Origin: Clostridia bacterium | GTDB lineage: Bacteria; Bacillota; Clostridia; UBA1381; UBA9506 | Assembly: GCA_017935435.1 (NCBI GenBank) | Contig: JAGBHP010000028.1 | Location: 1-48,238, forward strand | Length of the DNA: 48,238 nucleotides | Direction of reading: 5' to 3' | Shown: one piece after another, positions 40,334 to 48,238 of the stretch | How the letters are laid out: the number at the start of each line of letters is the position of its first letter | How positions within the stretch are numbered: position 1 is the stretch's first letter | Made by a program: the position numbers and the translations under genes | Notes under the pieces: model-generated | What the model saw: the letters and a program-made list of their open reading frames with translations, nothing else | Told to the model about the DNA's origin: nothing | Database searches by the model: none

Positions 40334-43300
40334 TCAGTTGCCCATGCCGTGAAGCACGTAAGCTACGTCTAAGATATCAATATCACCATCACGGTTTAAG
40401 TCGTATTTAACGAGCTTTTTGATGCCATCGTCATCTTGTGATTCAATATCATAAATTCCGTAGTAAGATGTTACAGCAGCTAAGTCATATTTATCAATGA
40501 TGTAGTCCATAGCAATGTCACCAACTAAGAAGTTGTGCATCATTTTGCTTCTGTTGTTGCCTGCTTCAATGTACCAATCACCTGTTCTCTTTACGCTGTT
40601 CCAGAAGTTAAGAACAAACTCAGCATCTATGTCTTCCATAGTTGTCTGATATGTGTATGTTCTAAATCCGGGAGCTTTAAGCGTTACTGTGATTACGCCG
40701 ATTGTAACATCATCAAAAATAACCTCTCCACTGTTTACACCTGTAATATTGATGTCTGCAAGCTCTTTTGTGAAGGTGTTGCCGATAGAATCTTTTAAGG
40801 TTACAGTCATAAACTTGTAAGCGTTATCAACCTGAGCGTTAATATCATGCTCAAACTCAATGTTTACCTTAACATCTCTTTTTGTTGTTGAAGCTGTGTT
40901 ATCGATAAAGCTATCAGGTTCTGTGGGGTCTGCTGCATTGTAATCAACAACGAGTTTATATGTTGCATCGCTAACTGTATAAATTCTTTCGTCGTTTGTT
41001 GCATCTTTAAGGTATTTTGTAGTAATAACCTTACTTGCATCGCCTACAACTTTAAGCTTCATTTTGCCTTTTCCGTCAAATACAACCTTACCGATAGGAA
41101 CTCTGTTGCCAGAAAGACGAACCTTTTCAACAGTATGAATTCTGTAAACCTGAACGTTATCTGTATTTGCAGCTGAACCTAAGTTGAGTCCTGCGGTTGT
41201 TTTACCGTCAATTCCGTAAACTGTGTAGTTCATGGTTTTGTTTTCGTATCCGCTTTCAACTAAGCTTCCAGATTTATCAAATGCAAGCTCTGCACCAACA
41301 AACTCAAAGATTTCAGCACCTTCAGATGCTTTTAATACGATATCGTATTCACCTTCAACTGTGGTAGGCTCAAACACTACTGTGATGTCGCCACATTCGT
41401 AAGCTTTGCTTTCAGCGTCTTTTTCAATTGTAATGTTTTGAGCGATATATTCCTCTGTAATTGTAGCATTTACTTCAAGATTATACCATACATTACCATT
41501 TTCTTTTCCATCGGCTGCTCCGCCTTCTGCAAATCCAACAGCAATCGACTTATTTACGTCTATATCATATTTAGGAGCATTAGACCGAGTTAAATCCATT
41601 TCAACAACAGCCTTAACATTATCTGTGCCTGATGCATAGAATTTTGAACCTGCGATGTCTAATTTACCGCCATCGACGCCATTTCCATGGCTATAAACCT
41701 TAATTGCTTTATTTACAGCGTTAAATACGCAATCTTTAAAGGTCACATCTTTTGACGCATACACATAAACTGAATAATCGTTGTTTACACCTGTAAATTC
41801 ACAACCGTCAAACTTAAACGTACCCTCGTAAAGAGTTAATACTTTGTTGAAATCACAGCTTTCAAAGGTCATATCAACATACTGTAAACCTCTTTCTATC
41901 GGCTGGTTACTTGCGGATCCTTGCCATGCTACCTGACCATCAACAACTACATCTTTAATTGTATATTTGTTGTTATTAAACACGTGAAGCTTATCCTCAA
42001 CATCCATTACAACCTCATCGTCACCGATAATTGTAACTTTTGCAATGTTTGAGATTATGTCACTTGCTTTAAAATCATCGTATGCGTAAATTGTAACTTC
42101 CGCTAAGCCTTGTTTTTCTGCATCTTTAACAGCTGCTGCAACAGAAGAATAATATGTATTTCCAATTTTTGCCTTTGGCGCAAAATTTGCATACTCAGGC
42201 TGATTGCCACTTGTTGTAATTGTATTGTTTTCTAAAGTTACTGAGCCTAAAGCACCGGAAAGGTTTACAACACCTTCATCAGCACCTGATGAAAGTATAT
42301 TATCCTTAATAATAACTTCAGAGCCTTCTTTTGCATTAATAACCTGAATTGCATTCCAGTTTACATTTGAAATTTCATTACCTGTAAAGGTTAAAGTGCC
42401 CTTTGAAGCATTAATGCCCACACCTGATTTTGGATAGGTATTAACATTTGATATTGTATTATTTGTAAATGTGAAGTTTTCCATTCTTTCGCTGTCAACA
42501 GCTGCACTAAGATTAAAGTATACAGCCGCAGCATCTGTTATATTATTAAACTTACAATTTGTAATTGTCCAGTCTTTGTACGTTGCGCTTGCTCTCCATC
42601 CCTGGAATAAAATGTATGAATTTTCAAACGCAATACCATCAAATGTTATATTCTCATAAGCAACCGTTGCAGCACCCGAATCACGGAATGAACTGTTTTT
42701 AATAACAGTTGCATAATCTGCAGCACCCTTTATAATTATATTTTTTACAGTTGACGGGAATAAAACGTGACCCAAATCAAACTCACCTGCTACAAACTGT
42801 ACAACAGCAGGAGCGGTTTCTGTTCCGATTACTGATGCCGCTTCAATCGCTGCCTTTATATCAGCATAAGGCACGCCATCAACTTTTGCAACACAAGCTG
42901 CTACGTTGTTTTCAACTACAACTCCCGATGCTGAGCCGTTTGAATATTCGCTTTTGCTTGCATAAGCTGTAATTTTTTCAATCGGAGTTGAAGAAACATT
43001 ATTCTTCACTGTAATATCTATATCGTCCGGTGTGGTATTACCGGGTTCTGTGCAGCATCCAACTATACCTGCTGCATTTTCGCCCGAAATACTCTCAGCA
43101 GTATTTTTGTTATCAGCTATATTAGCCAAGCTATAAACCAAACCAACGATACCACCTGAACCACCGCTAACATTAGCACCTGTTCCTGTGTATACAATAC
43201 TACCGCTGTTTGTATTATTGATTACATTGATTTTTTCGCTTCTTGCATAGCTTGTGCCTCCTTGGTAATGCAACCAACCTGCAATACCGCCGACATTAGT

Positions 43301-44179
43301 ATTTGCTGTAATAGTACCATAGTTTACATTATCTTTTACAGTACCAAAATCACTGAGGTCTGCAACTATACCACCTGCTTCGTATCCAGATGCAGTAATA
43401 TTTGCGTTATTGGTATTTCTAAGAAGATTTGCAGCCGCAAGACCTGCGATACCACCTGCTGCATAAATCGCTCTAACTTCACCATTATTTACACAGTCAG
43501 AAATTGTCATTTCTTTACCAACCGCTGTATAATAAGCTTTGCCAACAACACCACCTGCCGCTGTGTTTGCGGTCTCTGTTTTAACCGTAGCATTATTTAT
43601 ACAATTTGAAATTGTACCTTCAATAATCATTCTTCCGACAACACCGCCAACACCGTCAACGCCTGAAACAGTTCCACTTACAGTAATTCCGCTGATTTGA
43701 GAATTTTCAAAAGCTGCACCAACAGCTGCACCAACGTTGTCACCATTTGTAGGAGTGATTGCAACATTTTCTAAAGTAAAATCTTTAATCGTTGCACCAA
43801 CTACAACACCAAATAATCCTGCGGTTTCACCGCTTGATATGGTAAGGTTTGAAATGGTATTGCCTACGCCATCAAATGTGCCGCAAAAAGCATTTCCATT
43901 ATATGTTTTGCTGCTTCTTGAACCATTACCGATTGGCGTCCATTCCGTACCTGCAAGGTCAATAGATGTACCAAGTTTTACCGTTTGACCTGTCATTTTG
44001 TTTCCGCTATTTACATATTCTGCAAATGCAGTTAAATCTGCAGCACTTGACAAAACGATTTCATTTGCTGTCCAATCAGTAACTGCAGATGCTGTACCTT
44101 CTGCCGAAGCTACAATTCCCATTGTACTCATTATCATAGCTACGCTTAAGATAAGAGCCAAAATTTTTCTGATTTTCAT
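40334..44179 (-). CDS. Secreted beta-helix protein with C-terminal dockerin-like module
   Basis: A 1281-residue exported protein. Signal peptide MKIRKILALILSVAMIMSTMGIVASA. Residues about 50-400 hold GLUG-like repeats (GGVVGRMIIEGTISNCINNATV; GGIAGLAAANLLRNTNNANI). About 430-900 look like a right-handed beta-helix with short NxxTxNxI-type rungs (TFTNNTISNVN, TLENNTITTSGNQ). A carboxypeptidase-regulatory-like beta domain with LKAPGFRTYTYQTT precedes a dockerin type I-like end (about 1220-1281) whose second calcium loop is DLNRDGDIDILD; the first is degenerate (DYIIDKYDLAAV). No SLH domain. The ATG at 44179 has AAGGAA upstream; 31 further upstream residues have no signal-peptide logic. Expression is probably governed by the invertible segment upstream. 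Confidence 0.85.
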   Translation of the reverse strand: MKIRKILALILSVAMIMSTMGIVASAEGTASAVTDWTANEIVLSSAADLTAFAEYVNSGNKMTGQTVKLGTSIDLAGTEWTPIGNGSRSSKTYNGNAFCGTFDGVGNTISNLTISSGETAGLFGVVVGATIKDFTLENVAITPTNGDNVGAAVGAAFENSQISGITVSGTVSGVDGVGGVVGRMIIEGTISNCINNATVKTETANTAAGGVVGKAYYTAVGKEMTISDCVNNGEVRAIYAAGGIAGLAAANLLRNTNNANITASGYEAGGIVADLSDFGTVKDNVNYGTITANTNVGGIAGWLHYQGGTSYARSEKINVINNTNSGSIVYTGTGANVSGGSGGIVGLVYSLANIADNKNTAESISGENAAGIVGCCTEPGNTTPDDIDITVKNNVSSTPIEKITAYASKSEYSNGSASGVVVENNVAACVAKVDGVPYADIKAAIEAASVIGTETAPAVVQFVAGEFDLGHVLFPSTVKNIIIKGAADYATVIKNSSFRDSGAATVAYENITFDGIAFENSYILFQGWRASATYKDWTITNCKFNNITDAAAVYFNLSAAVDSERMENFTFTNNTISNVNTYPKSGVGINASKGTLTFTGNEISNVNWNAIQVINAKEGSEVIIKDNILSSGADEGVVNLSGALGSVTLENNTITTSGNQPEYANFAPKAKIGNTYYSSVAAAVKDAEKQGLAEVTIYAYDDFKASDIISNIAKVTIIGDDEVVMDVEDKLHVFNNNKYTIKDVVVDGQVAWQGSASNQPIERGLQYVDMTFESCDFNKVLTLYEGTFKFDGCEFTGVNNDYSVYVYASKDVTFKDCVFNAVNKAIKVYSHGNGVDGGKLDIAGSKFYASGTDNVKAVVEMDLTRSNAPKYDIDVNKSIAVGFAEGGAADGKENGNVWYNLEVNATITEEYIAQNITIEKDAESKAYECGDITVVFEPTTVEGEYDIVLKASEGAEIFEFVGAELAFDKSGSLVESGYENKTMNYTVYGIDGKTTAGLNLGSAANTDNVQVYRIHTVEKVRLSGNRVPIGKVVFDGKGKMKLKVVGDASKVITTKYLKDATNDERIYTVSDATYKLVVDYNAADPTEPDSFIDNTASTTKRDVKVNIEFEHDINAQVDNAYKFMTVTLKDSIGNTFTKELADINITGVNSGEVIFDDVTIGVITVTLKAPGFRTYTYQTTMEDIDAEFVLNFWNSVKRTGDWYIEAGNNRSKMMHNFLVGDIAMDYIIDKYDLAAVTSYYGIYDIESQDDDGIKKLVKYDLNRDGDIDILDVAYVLHGMGN

Positions 44180-44307
44180 TAAAAAAACCATTCCTTTCTT
44201 GTTTTTTGCGAATAAACGCTCGCCGTGCGCAGAGAAATAACCATTCCCGAACCAAGCTGCCGTCTCTGCCAAACCGCTCGGCTCGCCGTTTTCACCTCGC
44301 CTTTTGT
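44180..44307 (-). promoter_or_regulatory. GC-rich structured leader of the dockerin protein gene
   Basis: The predicted transcript leader (about 128 bases) is clearly more GC-rich than its surroundings. It contains a 7-bp stem GCAGAGA / TCTCTGC (44229-44235 with 44263-44269) bracketed by a 9-base direct repeat GCTCGCCGT (44218-44226 and 44281-44289). I do not recognise a known riboswitch class; it could be a structured leader or an inserted repeat fragment. Confidence 0.35.
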
Positions 44308-44356: not shown

Positions 44357-44378
44357 CCACATAATATAAATTATGTAG
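44357..44378 (+). other. Inversion site 1 (left end of switch A)
   Basis: Left arm CCACATAAT, 4-base centre ATAA, right arm ATTATGTAG. The outer flank TTA extends the left arm to 12 bases shared with sites 3 and 4. The centre is the reverse complement of that in site 2, so the two are inverted relative to each other. Confidence 0.8.
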
Positions 44379-44398
44379 TAGTTTTTAATTGATATTTT

Positions 44399-44596
44399 AA
44401 ATTGGGATTTAGCGTAGTACCATTTGGTAGAGCGACAGGCTCCCCTGTGTAAGGGGAGCTGTCACCGAAAGGTGACTGAGGGGTTGTTTTTGTGTCAACG
44501 ACCGTATTTTAACAACCCCTCCGAGTTTCGCTTTGCGAAACCCACCTCCCCTTACACAGTGGAGGCTACGCCCAACCGACAGTTAAATTCCAATTT
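44399..44596. repeat. Palindromic dispersed element inside segment A
   Basis: Imperfect terminal inverted repeats of about 14 bases (AAATTGGGATTTA at 44399; TTAAATTCCAATTT ending 44596) enclose nested hairpins: GGCTCCCC.../GGGGAGC, GTCACC-GAAA-GGTGAC (44461-44476), AGGGGTTGTT/AACAACCCCT and TTTCGC/GCGAAA. The first 61 bases recur in inverse orientation at 160-220. Non-coding, MITE/REP-like. Its hairpins may also block read-through within the switch. Confidence 0.7.
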
Positions 44597-44620
44597 ACCT
44601 ATTTTTTACGCAAGTTTTTC

Positions 44621-44650
44621 TTGTTTTCATCTTGGGTAATGACATAATAT
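44621..44650 (+). promoter_or_regulatory. Rightward promoter candidate in segment A
   Basis: TTGTTT (44621-44626) and TAATAT (44645-44650), 18 bases apart, point out through site 2. After inversion they would face the dockerin protein gene. A weaker match than the promoters of segment B. Confidence 0.4.
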
Positions 44651-44688
44651 ATGAAATAACCTGTTTTAACACGCCTTGTGTTTTCAAT

Positions 44689-44710
44689 CTACATAATTTA
44701 TATTATGTAG
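44689..44710 (-). other. Inversion site 2 (right end of switch A)
   Basis: Left arm CTACATAAT, centre TTAT, right arm ATTATGTAG. On the minus strand it reads with centre ATAA and differs from site 1 at one arm position only. Confidence 0.8.
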
Positions 44711-44752: not shown

Positions 44753-46735
44753 TTATTTCATAAGACCTGTAAGTCTATCACACATTACAGCCACTTCTGC
44801 ACGAGTAGCGTTACCATTCGGATTTACATTTCCATCTGCGCCTTTAATAATTCCTGCGCTTACCATTGATGCCATAGGTGACTTAGCGTACTCAGCAATA
44901 CTGTCTTTATCGCCAAATTCATCAAGTACCGCCAAATCTGTAACCTCTTCAATATATCCGAGGTTTAAAAATGCACGATAGCTGAGCGTAATTAAATCCT
45001 GTCTTGTAATGGTATTTTCAGGCATAAAGTTAACGCCGTCGCCTGTTGCGATGCCTGCAGCCTTTGCCTTACCGATTGCATCATAATAATAACTTGTTTC
45101 GGGTACATCTGCAAAATTATCGCTATATTCATTATCTAAGCCCAACATTCTGACAAGAATGAGGATAAAGTCGCCACGCTTGATGTTGTTTTGCGGAGCA
45201 AATTCTGTTTCGCTCACACCGCTGATGATTCCTTTATCTTTTAAGCGATAAATAGCTTCCTCTGCCCACGCATAATTTGCGATATCGCCGAATTTACCTG
45301 GTTCTACGGGGGTTACGGTTGTGCCGCCGGTTGTACCTGTGCTGCCGCCTGCGCTACCGCCGGAAGAGGCACCGCCGCCTCCACCGCCTCCGCCACCGCC
45401 GCCGGAGCCACCTGAGCTGCCGCCCGACTCGCCTTCATCAGTAGTCGCACTTGCTACATCTGAAAAAGCGCCTGTGCCGAAAGCATTTTTAGCTGCAATC
45501 TTAACAAAATATTCTGTGTCTTCGTCGAGGTTATCAATTACATACTCTGTCTTGGTAGAATCATTAATTTCAATCTCTTCATTTATGCTGATTTCATTTT
45601 CGCCGTATTTAATTACATAACCTGTAATTGTGCCTGTGGGTTTTGACCACTTAACAGTGATTTTTTCTTCGCCGCCCGTAACTGTGGGTTTTGACATTTT
45701 AGCAGGTGCGTTTTCATTACTGTCACCTGCGCTATCTCCTGCCGAATCACCAGAGCCGCCGTTTTCGCCAAAGACTGCCAAATCAAGTGAATCAACATAT
45801 CCGTCACGGTTAAAGTCAGCAGCTTCGCTGTATTCTTTATCTGCAATAAGCTTTTCGCAAGCCGTTTTATCTGCTGCATCTACCTTTTCGTCCTTATTTA
45901 CATCACCGGGAATAAACTCTGCGTTTGTAATTTCAAGCTCGCCTTCAAAGCTTACGCCCGTTTTTTTGTAAGGAACGTAGCCGGGAGCCTCAAGCTCAAC
46001 CGTGTATGTATCATCCTTTAAAACCTCTTTTGAAACGATAAAGTTTGCAACAGTTCCGCTTCCGCGGTGTGAATTTTTCAAATTAACCTGAAGCTCAACG
46101 CCCGATTTTTCGCCTGTAAGCTTTAAGGTTACAACACTTGCAATTTTGTCACTTTCAGCCGCAAAGTCTGTAATTTTGTCCATTAAAATTTTTACAACAG
46201 CGGTTTTTGCTTCATTTGCATCATTTGTAGCGGTTGCAGAAATGCTTGCCGTACCACTTGTAAAATACTGATTATCCGCCGTTTTAGCAAAACTGCGCTC
46301 ATTAACAACCTCAACATCTACGCTTTTGCCAGCAGTTCCTTCAAACGTAACAATAAACATATCTGTTTTGTTGTCAAAGCTCATACCATTTGTGTTTGTG
46401 TTTGCAATTCCTGCAGTAAGCCTTTTCTCGCGGTTTGCCCCGTCGGCTTCCGTTGCAATCGTAAAGCCGTCTTCTACAATCCACTCAATAGTTTTATACT
46501 TTAAGTCGCCGCCGAATTTAAGCTCAACCTGAGCTGCTTCCACTGCGCCTTCTGCGCCAACTAAGCTCACCTTAACCTTCGCTTCGCCCTTTAATGTTGT
46601 TACATCGCTTTGAGTTACATCTGTAAGCTCTACTGTAACCGTGCGGTCTGTTTCGTCAGCAAAAACGCATACACTTGTAAAAAGCATAGCTAAAGCCAAA
46701 ACAAAACAACCTAATTTTTTGAAACCTACTTTCAT
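44753..46735 (-). CDS. Cohesin-like/dockerin/FN3/SLH surface protein
   Basis: A 660-residue wall-anchored protein. Signal peptide MKVGFKKLGCFVLALAMLFTSVCVFA. Residues about 30-180 form a beta domain resembling cohesins (VKVSLVGAEGAVEAAQVELKFGGDLKY). A carboxypeptidase-regulatory-like domain with LEAPGYVPYKKTG comes next, then a dockerin type I-like pair of calcium loops (about 277-325: DVNKDEKVDAAD and DFNRDGYVDSLD). A fibronectin type III domain spans about 345-430 (KPTVTGGEEKITVKWSKPTG), a glycine/serine linker (435-480) follows, and three SLH domains end it (about 482-658). The TetR regulator gene ends 18 bases upstream on the same strand, so the two are one unit. Cohesin assignment is tentative; dockerin, FN3 and SLH are clear. 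Confidence 0.87.
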   Translation of the reverse strand: MKVGFKKLGCFVLALAMLFTSVCVFADETDRTVTVELTDVTQSDVTTLKGEAKVKVSLVGAEGAVEAAQVELKFGGDLKYKTIEWIVEDGFTIATEADGANREKRLTAGIANTNTNGMSFDNKTDMFIVTFEGTAGKSVDVEVVNERSFAKTADNQYFTSGTASISATATNDANEAKTAVVKILMDKITDFAAESDKIASVVTLKLTGEKSGVELQVNLKNSHRGSGTVANFIVSKEVLKDDTYTVELEAPGYVPYKKTGVSFEGELEITNAEFIPGDVNKDEKVDAADKTACEKLIADKEYSEAADFNRDGYVDSLDLAVFGENGGSGDSAGDSAGDSNENAPAKMSKPTVTGGEEKITVKWSKPTGTITGYVIKYGENEISINEEIEINDSTKTEYVIDNLDEDTEYFVKIAAKNAFGTGAFSDVASATTDEGESGGSSGGSGGGGGGGGGGGASSGGSAGGSTGTTGGTTVTPVEPGKFGDIANYAWAEEAIYRLKDKGIISGVSETEFAPQNNIKRGDFILILVRMLGLDNEYSDNFADVPETSYYYDAIGKAKAAGIATGDGVNFMPENTITRQDLITLSYRAFLNLGYIEEVTDLAVLDEFGDKDSIAEYAKSPMASMVSAGIIKGADGNVNPNGNATRAEVAVMCDRLTGLMK

Positions 46736-46753: not shown

Positions 46754-47314
46754 TTAAATTGTGTTAACCAGACCCGTTATGAGCTTACACACATAATCGA
46801 GCTGCATTTTTGTCACTTTGTAATCGTCCCATACTACGTAATCAAGAATTATTGACAAGCATATAAAGATGATAGGCGCTAAATCTTCAGGCTTGCACTT
46901 TATACTGTCTGCAATCATAACAATATACTCTTCATAGTCGCCGTTTAAATTATCTGCACTTTCACGCATCGCTTCTCCATAAACAGGACTTGTCGCAACC
47001 TGATAAATAAGCCTTAATTCCTGTTTATATTTTGAAACCTCATTAATAAACGAAGAAAAAAACCTTTCAGGATTAGAAAGACCGCCTGATGCGTGCGCAA
47101 AAAGCTTTTGCGCAACCCTTGCCAAGCCATGCTTTGCCGCATTTATGTACAAATCATCCTTACCTGCAAACCAATAATAAAGACTCCCCGAGGAAATCCC
47201 TATATCCTTGCATAAATCGCGTATCGACGTGTTTTCAAGTCCATGTTTTACAAGATAATCAAAAGTTGTGTCTAAAAACTCACCTTTTATATCACGCACA
47301 ACCTGTTCCCTCAC
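46754..47314 (-). CDS. TetR/AcrR family regulator
   Basis: A 186-residue regulator. The N-terminal helix-turn-helix is LVKHGLENTSIRDLCKDIGISSGSLYYWFAGKDDLYINAAKHGL (about 20-63), followed by an all-helical ligand-binding and dimerisation part. The GTG start has AAGGAG upstream. It is the first gene after invertible segment B and is co-oriented with the SLH/cohesin-like protein gene, so both would respond to the switch. The regulator may in turn act on its own promoters in segment B; no ligand can be inferred. Confidence 0.92.
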   Translation of the reverse strand: MREQVVRDIKGEFLDTTFDYLVKHGLENTSIRDLCKDIGISSGSLYYWFAGKDDLYINAAKHGLARVAQKLFAHASGGLSNPERFFSSFINEVSKYKQELRLIYQVATSPVYGEAMRESADNLNGDYEEYIVMIADSIKCKPEDLAPIIFICLSIILDYVVWDDYKVTKMQLDYVCKLITGLVNTI

Positions 47315-47390
47315 TAAATCAACTCCTTAATATAACATTTGTAACATTTTCTTGAACACCTGTTATAATTTGCATTTAAAAAAATGCTTA

Positions 47391-47412
47391 CCACATAATC
47401 GGCATTATGTAG
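47391..47412 (+). other. Inversion site 3 (left end of switch B)
   Basis: Left arm CCACATAAT, centre CGGC, right arm ATTATGTAG. With flanks TTA and TAA the imperfect palindrome covers 47388-47415. The centre is the reverse complement of that in site 4 and unlike sites 1 and 2. A small hairpin (GCATTT/AAATGC, 47372-47387) abuts its left side. Confidence 0.85.
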
Positions 47413-47447
47413 TAAATCTATGATTAAAAGCATAGATACGCAAGGTT

Positions 47448-47477
47448 ATTATATCACCCGCTTGTAAGCCGTGTCAA
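47448..47477 (-). promoter_or_regulatory. Leftward promoter in segment B
   Basis: Minus-strand TTGACA (47477-47472) and TATAAT (47453-47448), 18 bases apart. The start site is about 47441, so the transcript crosses site 3 and enters tetR. Confidence 0.8.
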
Positions 47478-47578
47478 CAAATTCGACAAATACGTAATAT
47501 TATTTTAATATAAAAACGTGCAACTAAGCGGTTTTATGACCGATTAGTACCATTTCATGCCCGTTTTTAGATTTTTTT

Positions 47579-47608
47579 TTGACAATTTTCCCTTGCTAAT
47601 TTTAAAAT
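47579..47608 (+). promoter_or_regulatory. Second rightward promoter candidate in segment B
   Basis: TTGACA (47579-47584) and TAAAAT (47603-47608), 18 bases apart, with a T run just upstream. A short hairpin CGCTT-AACC-AAGCG followed by GTTTTT (47616-47636) could attenuate this transcript. Confidence 0.5.
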
Positions 47609-47653
47609 TGTGTTACAAATCGCTTAACCAAGCGGTTTTTAAATAAAAAATCA

Positions 47654-47682
47654 TTGACAAAGTATGTAGCAGGTGCTATAAT
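47654..47682 (+). promoter_or_regulatory. Rightward consensus promoter in segment B
   Basis: TTGACA (47654-47659) and TATAAT (47677-47682) are exactly 17 bases apart. It points out through site 4 towards the 3' end of the recombinase gene in the orientation shown; site 4 plus TTATTTTTTT would end the transcript after about 100 bases. After inversion it would drive tetR. Confidence 0.85.
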
Positions 47683-47769
47683 TGGCATATGCATAGCATT
47701 TTAATTATTAATTTTTGTTTAAAAATGTCATTTTCTGCATCGTTATTTTATTTTTTTCTAAAATTTTTA

Positions 47770-47791
47770 CCACATAATGCCGATTATGTGG
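47770..47791 (-). other. Inversion site 4 (right end of switch B), doubling as a terminator
   Basis: Left arm CCACATAAT, centre GCCG, right arm ATTATGTGG: a perfect 9-bp stem with a 4-base loop. On the plus strand TTATTTTTTT follows, so the RNA form resembles an intrinsic terminator. The recombinase stop codon is 8 bases away. Confidence 0.85.
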
Positions 47792-47799
47792 TTATTTTT

Positions 47800-48238
47800 T
47801 TAGCACATCAAAAGTCCGAGCTTTTGCAGTTGCAGGCAGTGTATTTCTCCCGTTTCTTTCGTATAAATGCGCGTGGTATTTATGCTGGAGTGTCCCAAAA
47901 TATCTGCTAATCGCACGATATCCTTTTGAACAGAATAAAATGTGCGTGCAAAAAGATGTCTTAAATTATGCGGAAAAACCTTTTCTTTCATCACGTTTGC
48001 GCTATCACATAGTTTTTTAAGCATCTTCCACACATTAGACCTGTCGAGCGGATTTCCGTTTTTGGTTACAAAAACAGGGCCTTTTTTTATTTTATTGGAT
48101 TTTATATAGCTCATAAGTGCTTTGCAAAGCCTTTTTGGCAAAAAAACCTGCCTTAGCTTTCCCTTGCAATTTATAATTGCTCTTTTTTCGTCTACCGCCT
48201 CCTTGGTTATAAATTTAAGCTCTGATACCCTTATTCCC
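47800..48238 (-). CDS. Tyrosine recombinase, partial (N-terminus beyond window)
   Basis: The C-terminal catalytic half of a phage-integrase-family recombinase, open to the window edge and truncated there. All catalytic residues are visible: the first Arg in GIRVSEL, Lys in CKGKLRQVFLP, HNLRH (His-x-x-Arg), the LGHSSINTT histidine, and the nucleophile in RIYTK. The protein ends soon after (CLQLQKLGLLMC), as compact XerC/D- or invertase-type enzymes do. Its frame continues left of the TTG at 48141, so that codon is not the start. Adjacency to site 4 makes it the obvious candidate to recombine sites 1-4. An integrative-element integrase is the alternative. Confidence 0.9.
   Translation of the reverse strand, partial: GIRVSELKFITKEAVDEKRAIINCKGKLRQVFLPKRLCKALMSYIKSNKIKKGPVFVTKNGNPLDRSNVWKMLKKLCDSANVMKEKVFPHNLRHLFARTFYSVQKDIVRLADILGHSSINTTRIYTKETGEIHCLQLQKLGLLMC

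Follow-up and report, generated by a model that had tools for sequence, protein, structure and literature searches.

The window analysed in this study, the whole stretch of 48,238 nucleotides from a Clostridia bacterium (assembly GCA_017935435.1, contig JAGBHP010000028.1), ends within a tyrosine recombinase gene. Beside this gene lie two palindromes, at 47391-47412 (CCACATAATCGGCATTATGTAG) and at 47770-47791 (CCACATAATGCCGATTATGTGG), exactly where a first-pass annotation had placed them. Their centres are reverse-complementary, as it had likewise stated: TCGGCA in the core ACATAA-TCGGCA-TTATGT of the far site, and TGCCGA in the recombinase-side site. The palindromes form part of a longer inverted repeat (47390-47416 and 47766-47792) with 26 of 27 matching positions, and the 357 bp between them (47413-47769) constitute the putative invertible interior. 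The recombinase-side site is followed on the plus strand by a T-rich tract, TTATTTTTTT. In the window, the general site pattern has eight strand matches where 0.24 are expected, a number that none of 100 shuffles reached. With inverted repeats, an identical crossover core and an enclosed promoter, the element has the anatomy of an inverton, and we refer to it as inverton 1.

The first gene downstream of inverton 1 encodes a TetR-family regulator (46754-47314, minus strand) and is followed after 18 bp by the gene for a surface protein (44753-46735, minus strand). The latter had been described as SLH/cohesin-like; its SLH character holds, but a domain scan gives three SLH, one fn3 and one dockerin domain, and no cohesin. 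On the other side, the recombinase gene adjoins the second palindrome as annotated, its stop codon lying 8 bp away at 47800. The contig ends before the gene does, and the window holds the C-terminal 145 residues (47800-48238, minus strand). This fragment includes all of the catalytic residues (R, K, HxxR, H and Y), so that the earlier claim of a complete catalytic set is correct, albeit for an incomplete gene; the same residues are invariant in 10 homologues. Another contig, C28, starts with the 28 bp that close the window and carries the first 143 residues (C28:1-429, minus strand). The joined protein, which rests on this 28-bp overlap, comprises 279 residues, in which a SAM-like domain at the N-terminus precedes a complete catalytic domain, and it matches Phage_integrase (PF00589, E 4.9e-22), which makes it a tyrosine site-specific recombinase. 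More specific models were missed: two homologues (L054, L053) and a paralogue from the same genome (L007) stay below the NCBIfam cut-offs for XerA (133-154 bits, cut-off 220), XerD (123-140, 329.6), XerC (108-116, 335) and XerS (55-70, 267), and homologues reach only 23-42 bits with the fim-type invertase models NF007370 and NF007371 (cut-off 221-222). Upstream of the recombinase, C28 also encodes a secreted protein with an SLH domain (L006 675-3266), which has no recognisable site linked to it.

To place this arrangement in context, we collected homologous recombinases from the family, the order, the class, IMG/VR and plasmid records; where measured, they are 45-64% identical to that of the window. 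A recombinase of this type is encoded in 63 of the 391 genomes of the class-level sample. Among viral contigs, a single-protein query returned no loci and an alignment query 80, about 16 of which belong to the same subfamily. An inverted pair of the form ACATAA-N6-TTATGT is found just 3' of the recombinase stop codon in 93 of the 104 loci whose 3' flank extends over 320 bp or more, while the same search gave none in 46 5' flanks and none in shuffled 3' flanks. No recognisable pair stands beside some other homologues, among them the paralogue L007, L231, L239, L243, L272, L275 and L276. Site and promoter thresholds in these searches were set by us. Within all 93 pairs the 6-bp centres are reverse-complementary, an agreement that is partly selected, since the search required a centre match of at least 5/6, although shuffles yield no pairs at all. 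The centres are mostly of the form T-NNNN-A and fall into 49 distinct types, and not one of the 93 is self-palindromic, compared to about 5.8 expected at a frequency of 1/16 (P ~0.002, or 0.04 if only distinct centres are counted). Furthermore, 103 inverted pairs stand against a single direct one. Inversion by a tyrosine recombinase needs identical, asymmetric crossover regions in inverted orientation, which would not be expected of operators, and the reverse-complementary, asymmetric and inverted centres therefore fit such a recombination system.

This bears directly on another interpretation of the locus, namely that the palindromes are operators of the neighbouring TetR repressor. Palindromes beside tetR genes are typical of TetR operators, yet the sites occur in all cassettes, and only 5 of 75 scanned first or second downstream proteins are TetR-like. 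Moreover, the sites are linked to the recombinase, and their centres differ between loci while remaining reverse-complementary inside each pair. As few cassettes have a tetR gene and the centres pair within rather than between loci, we rejected the operator interpretation, which we regard as extremely improbable. Equally remote is the idea that the sites are transcription terminators that merely resemble recombination sites. It has some basis on the recombinase side, where the site of inverton 1 folds well (-12.2 kcal/mol, z -4.7) with T-tracts 3' of it, and where the T-content outward of the site is 0.63 across the family, compared to 0.29 at the far site. The far sites, however, lack T-tracts, for which reason we rejected this explanation for them, and it accounts neither for centres matched in inverted orientation nor for interiors that occur both ways round among relatives. 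We thus return to recombination sites, of which the one next to the recombinase looks like it doubles as a candidate intrinsic terminator toward the recombinase; its T-rich counterparts across the family are likewise candidate terminators shielding the recombinase gene.

The first-pass annotation had proposed that the element is an inversion switch beside its own tyrosine recombinase, and homologous cassettes in dozens of genomes, together with assembly and orientation evidence in relatives, strongly support this. Comparison of related genomes, which it had suggested as a check, revealed both states. The interiors of L201 and L219 are mirror images relative to the recombinase (79% over 233 nt), and in two further comparisons (L112 with L125, and L200 with L217) the interiors are in opposite orientation while the downstream flanks are collinear. 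In one genome, contig G017:C7 consists of an inverton that has a flank on one side and, on the other, the reverse complement of this flank, identical at 98 of 98 bases, so that the junctions of both orientations are present in a single assembly. A site is also the point at which reads of two orientations diverge, and six contigs stop 0-4 bp from a site core or arm (G049:C1, G049:C5, G046:C25, G024:C4, G310:C4 and G439:C23). We consider these ends supportive only, because repeats elsewhere could likewise break contigs; in the window genome, many contig breaks are due to a MITE-like repeat. A separate case is the genome G014, in which the search detected no recombinase of this type: here, an inverton pair with one decayed arm (L076 576-825, on G014:C13) encloses the reverse complement of the G017:C7 interior. 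To read the other orientation in the window's own species, we probed IMG/VR with two 30-nt interior sequences, which matched no locus of this species. The exact core ACATAATCGGCATTATGT was found in two viral contigs, which we rejected as invertons, as each has a single site. All of the evidence for flipping thus comes from relatives, and by homology with them the window segment can very probably be flipped by the neighbouring recombinase.

The interior of inverton 1 harbours two outward consensus promoters, as the first-pass annotation had indicated, and both score 12/12 against the consensus. One of them (TTGACA-18-TATAAT; 47448-47477, minus strand) reads left toward tetR, with its -10 element 37 bp inside the far site core. 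Since this is the usual place for a promoter in the family, the assembled orientation looks ON for tetR and the SLH gene. The other (TTGACA-17-TATAAT; 47654-47682, plus strand) has a TG before its -10 element, which lies 89 bp inside the recombinase-side site core. In the assembled orientation this promoter would meet the putative site-terminator, and after inversion it would face tetR. Between the two promoters lies a hairpin with A/T tracts (47511-47569), which folding (z -3.0 and -2.3) and the family trend mark as a predicted bidirectional terminator or insulator. Across the family, outward sigma-70-type promoters are present in 48 of 56 interiors, compared to about 4 in shuffles; the distance between the -10 element and the site core has a median of 38 bp. 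The promoter points toward the recombinase in 42 of the 93 cassettes and away from it in 25; five cassettes have promoters in both directions, and 21 have none at the threshold used. A hairpin stands upstream of the promoter in 64 of the 67 single-promoter cassettes and exceeds shuffles in stability in 52 of 56, which makes it a likely insulator. On the far side, 50 of 52 first genes are oriented away from the inverton. By these features, most cassettes would be plain on/off switches with a single promoter about 38 bp inside one site.

It is against this background that the earlier proposal of a promoter exchange on the tetR-SLH operon has to be judged. It fits the anatomy of the window and of three other long cassettes with two outward promoters, L216 (37 and 82 bp from the core), L260 (35 and 81 bp) and L225 (37 and 33 bp), but it does not extend to the single-promoter majority. 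The window cassette belongs to this rare longer subtype. In L216 and L260 the interiors are imperfect inverted repeats, which suggests that the promoter half was duplicated, whereas the interior in the window is not clearly of this kind. As a separate feature, L216, L219, L218, L201 and L260 carry tandem extra site copies with the same centre (TGGAAA) at one inverton end. Given the second outward promoter, flipping would probably replace the promoter of tetR and the SLH gene rather than silence the operon. Such a two-state swap is plausible but unproven, resting as it does on matches to the consensus. In its fullest form, the tetR-surface operon would always be transcribed and inversion would exchange its promoter and leader, thereby setting level or regulation, while the recombination site would terminate transcription from one side and so protect the recombinase gene, and orthogonal 6-bp centres would let one enzyme run several independent switches; we put this forward tentatively, at somewhat less than even odds. 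The same standing, a little below an even chance, belongs to a plain on/off switch in which the promoter 37 bp from the far site is the only one that matters, the second being inactive or giving a short terminated RNA. The family argues for this simpler behaviour, with 67 single-promoter cassettes and five dual ones; the second promoter, at 89 bp, lies farther from the core than usual, and transcription from it would encounter the site-terminator. On the other hand, that promoter is a perfect TTGACA-17-TATAAT with a preceding TG, and the layout recurs in L216 and L260 (35-37 and 81-82 bp), while in L225 both promoters lie at 33-37 bp.

Inverton 1 is not the only such element in this genome. 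The first-pass annotation overlooked a second pair of inverted sites, which has the arms of inverton 1 but another centre and lies upstream of the next surface-protein gene, with its far site at 44357-44378 (core centre TATAAA) and its second site at 44689-44710 (TTTATA, the reverse complement). Its likely target encodes a large secreted protein (40334-44182, minus strand). The interior of this inverton 2 (44379-44688) contains a high-copy MITE-like insert (~44398-44600) and a single, weak promoter candidate (TTGTTT-16-CATAAT with an extended -10) that points right, away from the downstream gene; given this candidate and the insert, inverton 2 may be OFF or damaged. The MITE-like repeat is about 200 bp long and recurs, in part or in full, some 40 more times across the genome of 1.08 Mb; many contigs begin or stop in it. 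Contig C30, which opens inside a presumed invertible segment, carries a further site 95 bp into its sequence; a promoter (TTGACA-18-TATAAT) is directed across this site toward the gene for a secreted protein, which resembles the 40334-44182 protein in its signal region. Together, inverton 1, inverton 2 and the C30 site suggest that this genome, at 67% completeness, carries three or more invertons, one of them linked to a recombinase. A lone site at C13:20407 (L012 1501-1520) lies directly after a DeoR-like regulator gene and 133 bp from the contig end, and it may represent one half of a further inverton or no more than a terminator; as no partner site was seen, we rejected it as an inverton, along with weaker matches on C35, C40, C49 and C54. 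The sequence at C60:319 resembles the C30 promoter, with no site in the stretch read.

Flipping might also depend mainly on another enzyme than the neighbouring recombinase, namely on its paralogue or on the housekeeping XerC/XerD. A paralogue with 57% identity is indeed encoded on contig C24 (L007) with no sites beside it, and the site arms seem to resemble those of dif. This possibility nevertheless appears improbable, because the sites are physically linked to this recombinase type in 93 of 104 loci, and because XerC/D-like genes are found in most genomes of the family, even in those without paired exact sites.

The anatomy and conservation of the locus, and the orientation differences among its relatives, lead us to conclude, at a probability of roughly 0.9, that 47390-48238 together with C28:1-429 is one cassette of a Clostridia inversion family; catalysis by this enzyme, promoter and terminator activity and the two-state output are what we infer from it. 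The Xer-like tyrosine recombinase would act on the two inverted, dif-like sites right after its own stop codon, and strand exchange within the 6-bp centre, identical between both sites, would flip the promoter-bearing interior. As the centre is asymmetric, inversion rather than deletion would result, and invertons with differing centres should be kept from recombination among themselves. With the interior in one orientation, the promoter some 37 bp inward of the far site would read out into tetR and the SLH gene, while the recombinase-side site and the fixed T-tract would end transcripts from any promoter facing the recombinase, and the internal hairpin would insulate the two sides of the interior. 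The same recombinase, or the C24 paralogue, probably flips inverton 2 and the C30 element, too. For the final step of this explanation, the two-state output of flipping, we see close to even odds.

The cargo of the family consists mostly of secreted or surface proteins (SLH, Glug, LRR_5, cohesin or dockerin), next to TetR regulators, helicase and sugar-aminotransferase genes, ParB and others. A tetR gene lies directly or nearly 3' of the inverton in the window, L053, L055, L194 and L196. In one of these loci (L053 4825-8975, genome G007), the inverton is followed by tetR and by genes for a secreted protein, a signal-peptidase-like protein and, by sequence resemblance, a TasA-like protein, making a phase-variable biofilm matrix operon possible. 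Genes for Helicase-associated/ResIII helicases stand directly behind the invertons of L198, L214 and L230, followed in at least two cases by DegT-type aminotransferases, which suggests switched polysaccharide loci. Behind the inverton of L115 (7160-12288), on a virus-classified contig, lie genes that by eye look like methyltransferase or restriction-type genes. Among commensals, Monoglobus pectinilyticus has a record that contains a cassette of the family (L268).

Invertible promoters with tyrosine recombinases are a well-known kind of switch. By class, linkage and span, the family is probably the same as inverton group 139 / invertase group 35 of hCom2, as portrayed in the part of that account considered here (PMC11892184). 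There, 32 of 33 invertons are from Clostridia, with a tyrosine-type recombinase near almost every one; two named examples span ~255-257 bp, and reads prove orientation changes in Clostridium sp. D5 and Intestinimonas butyriciproducens. The same part makes no mention of two outward promoters, centre rules, sites as terminators or tetR. As in Escherichia coli fimE-fimS, the tyrosine recombinase is immediately beside a short invertible promoter, and termination of the fimE transcript depends on switch orientation (PMC2784873). Unlike the window cassette, fim has a single invertible promoter and lacks tetR cargo, and our homologues score far below the cut-off of the fim-type models. Likewise, the RecV switches of Clostridioides difficile (cwpV, flg and others) combine an Xer-family tyrosine recombinase with short inverted repeats and surface-protein targets, and one enzyme serves several switches, as may be the case here (PMC2784873; PMC5903667). 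By contrast, recV is not beside the cwpV switch, and the cwpV promoter lies outside the inverted region, its control being proposed to act via a terminator in the OFF transcript (PMC2784873; PMC5903667). Lastly, inversion of the UU172 element of Ureaplasma parvum shares candidate tyrosine recombinases (RipX, XerC, CodV), short inverted repeats and a surface-antigen locus, but concerns another organism and target, and the part of the report considered here describes no linked recombinase-promoter cassette (PMC3599477). A literature search with the site letters gave nothing relevant among the 30 matches listed.

Seen as a whole, these cassettes constitute a large, widespread and mostly uncharacterised family of self-contained flip switches in Clostridia, in which inversion would control surface proteins, likely capsule genes, a TasA/SipW-like operon, restriction-type genes and genes of phages or plasmids. 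Their simple sequence rules (arms, centre, promoter offset and terminator side) should allow such switches to be found in assemblies without reads. Finally, the copies with two promoters make it testable whether inversion can serve as a dial between two expression programs, rather than just as an on/off switch.
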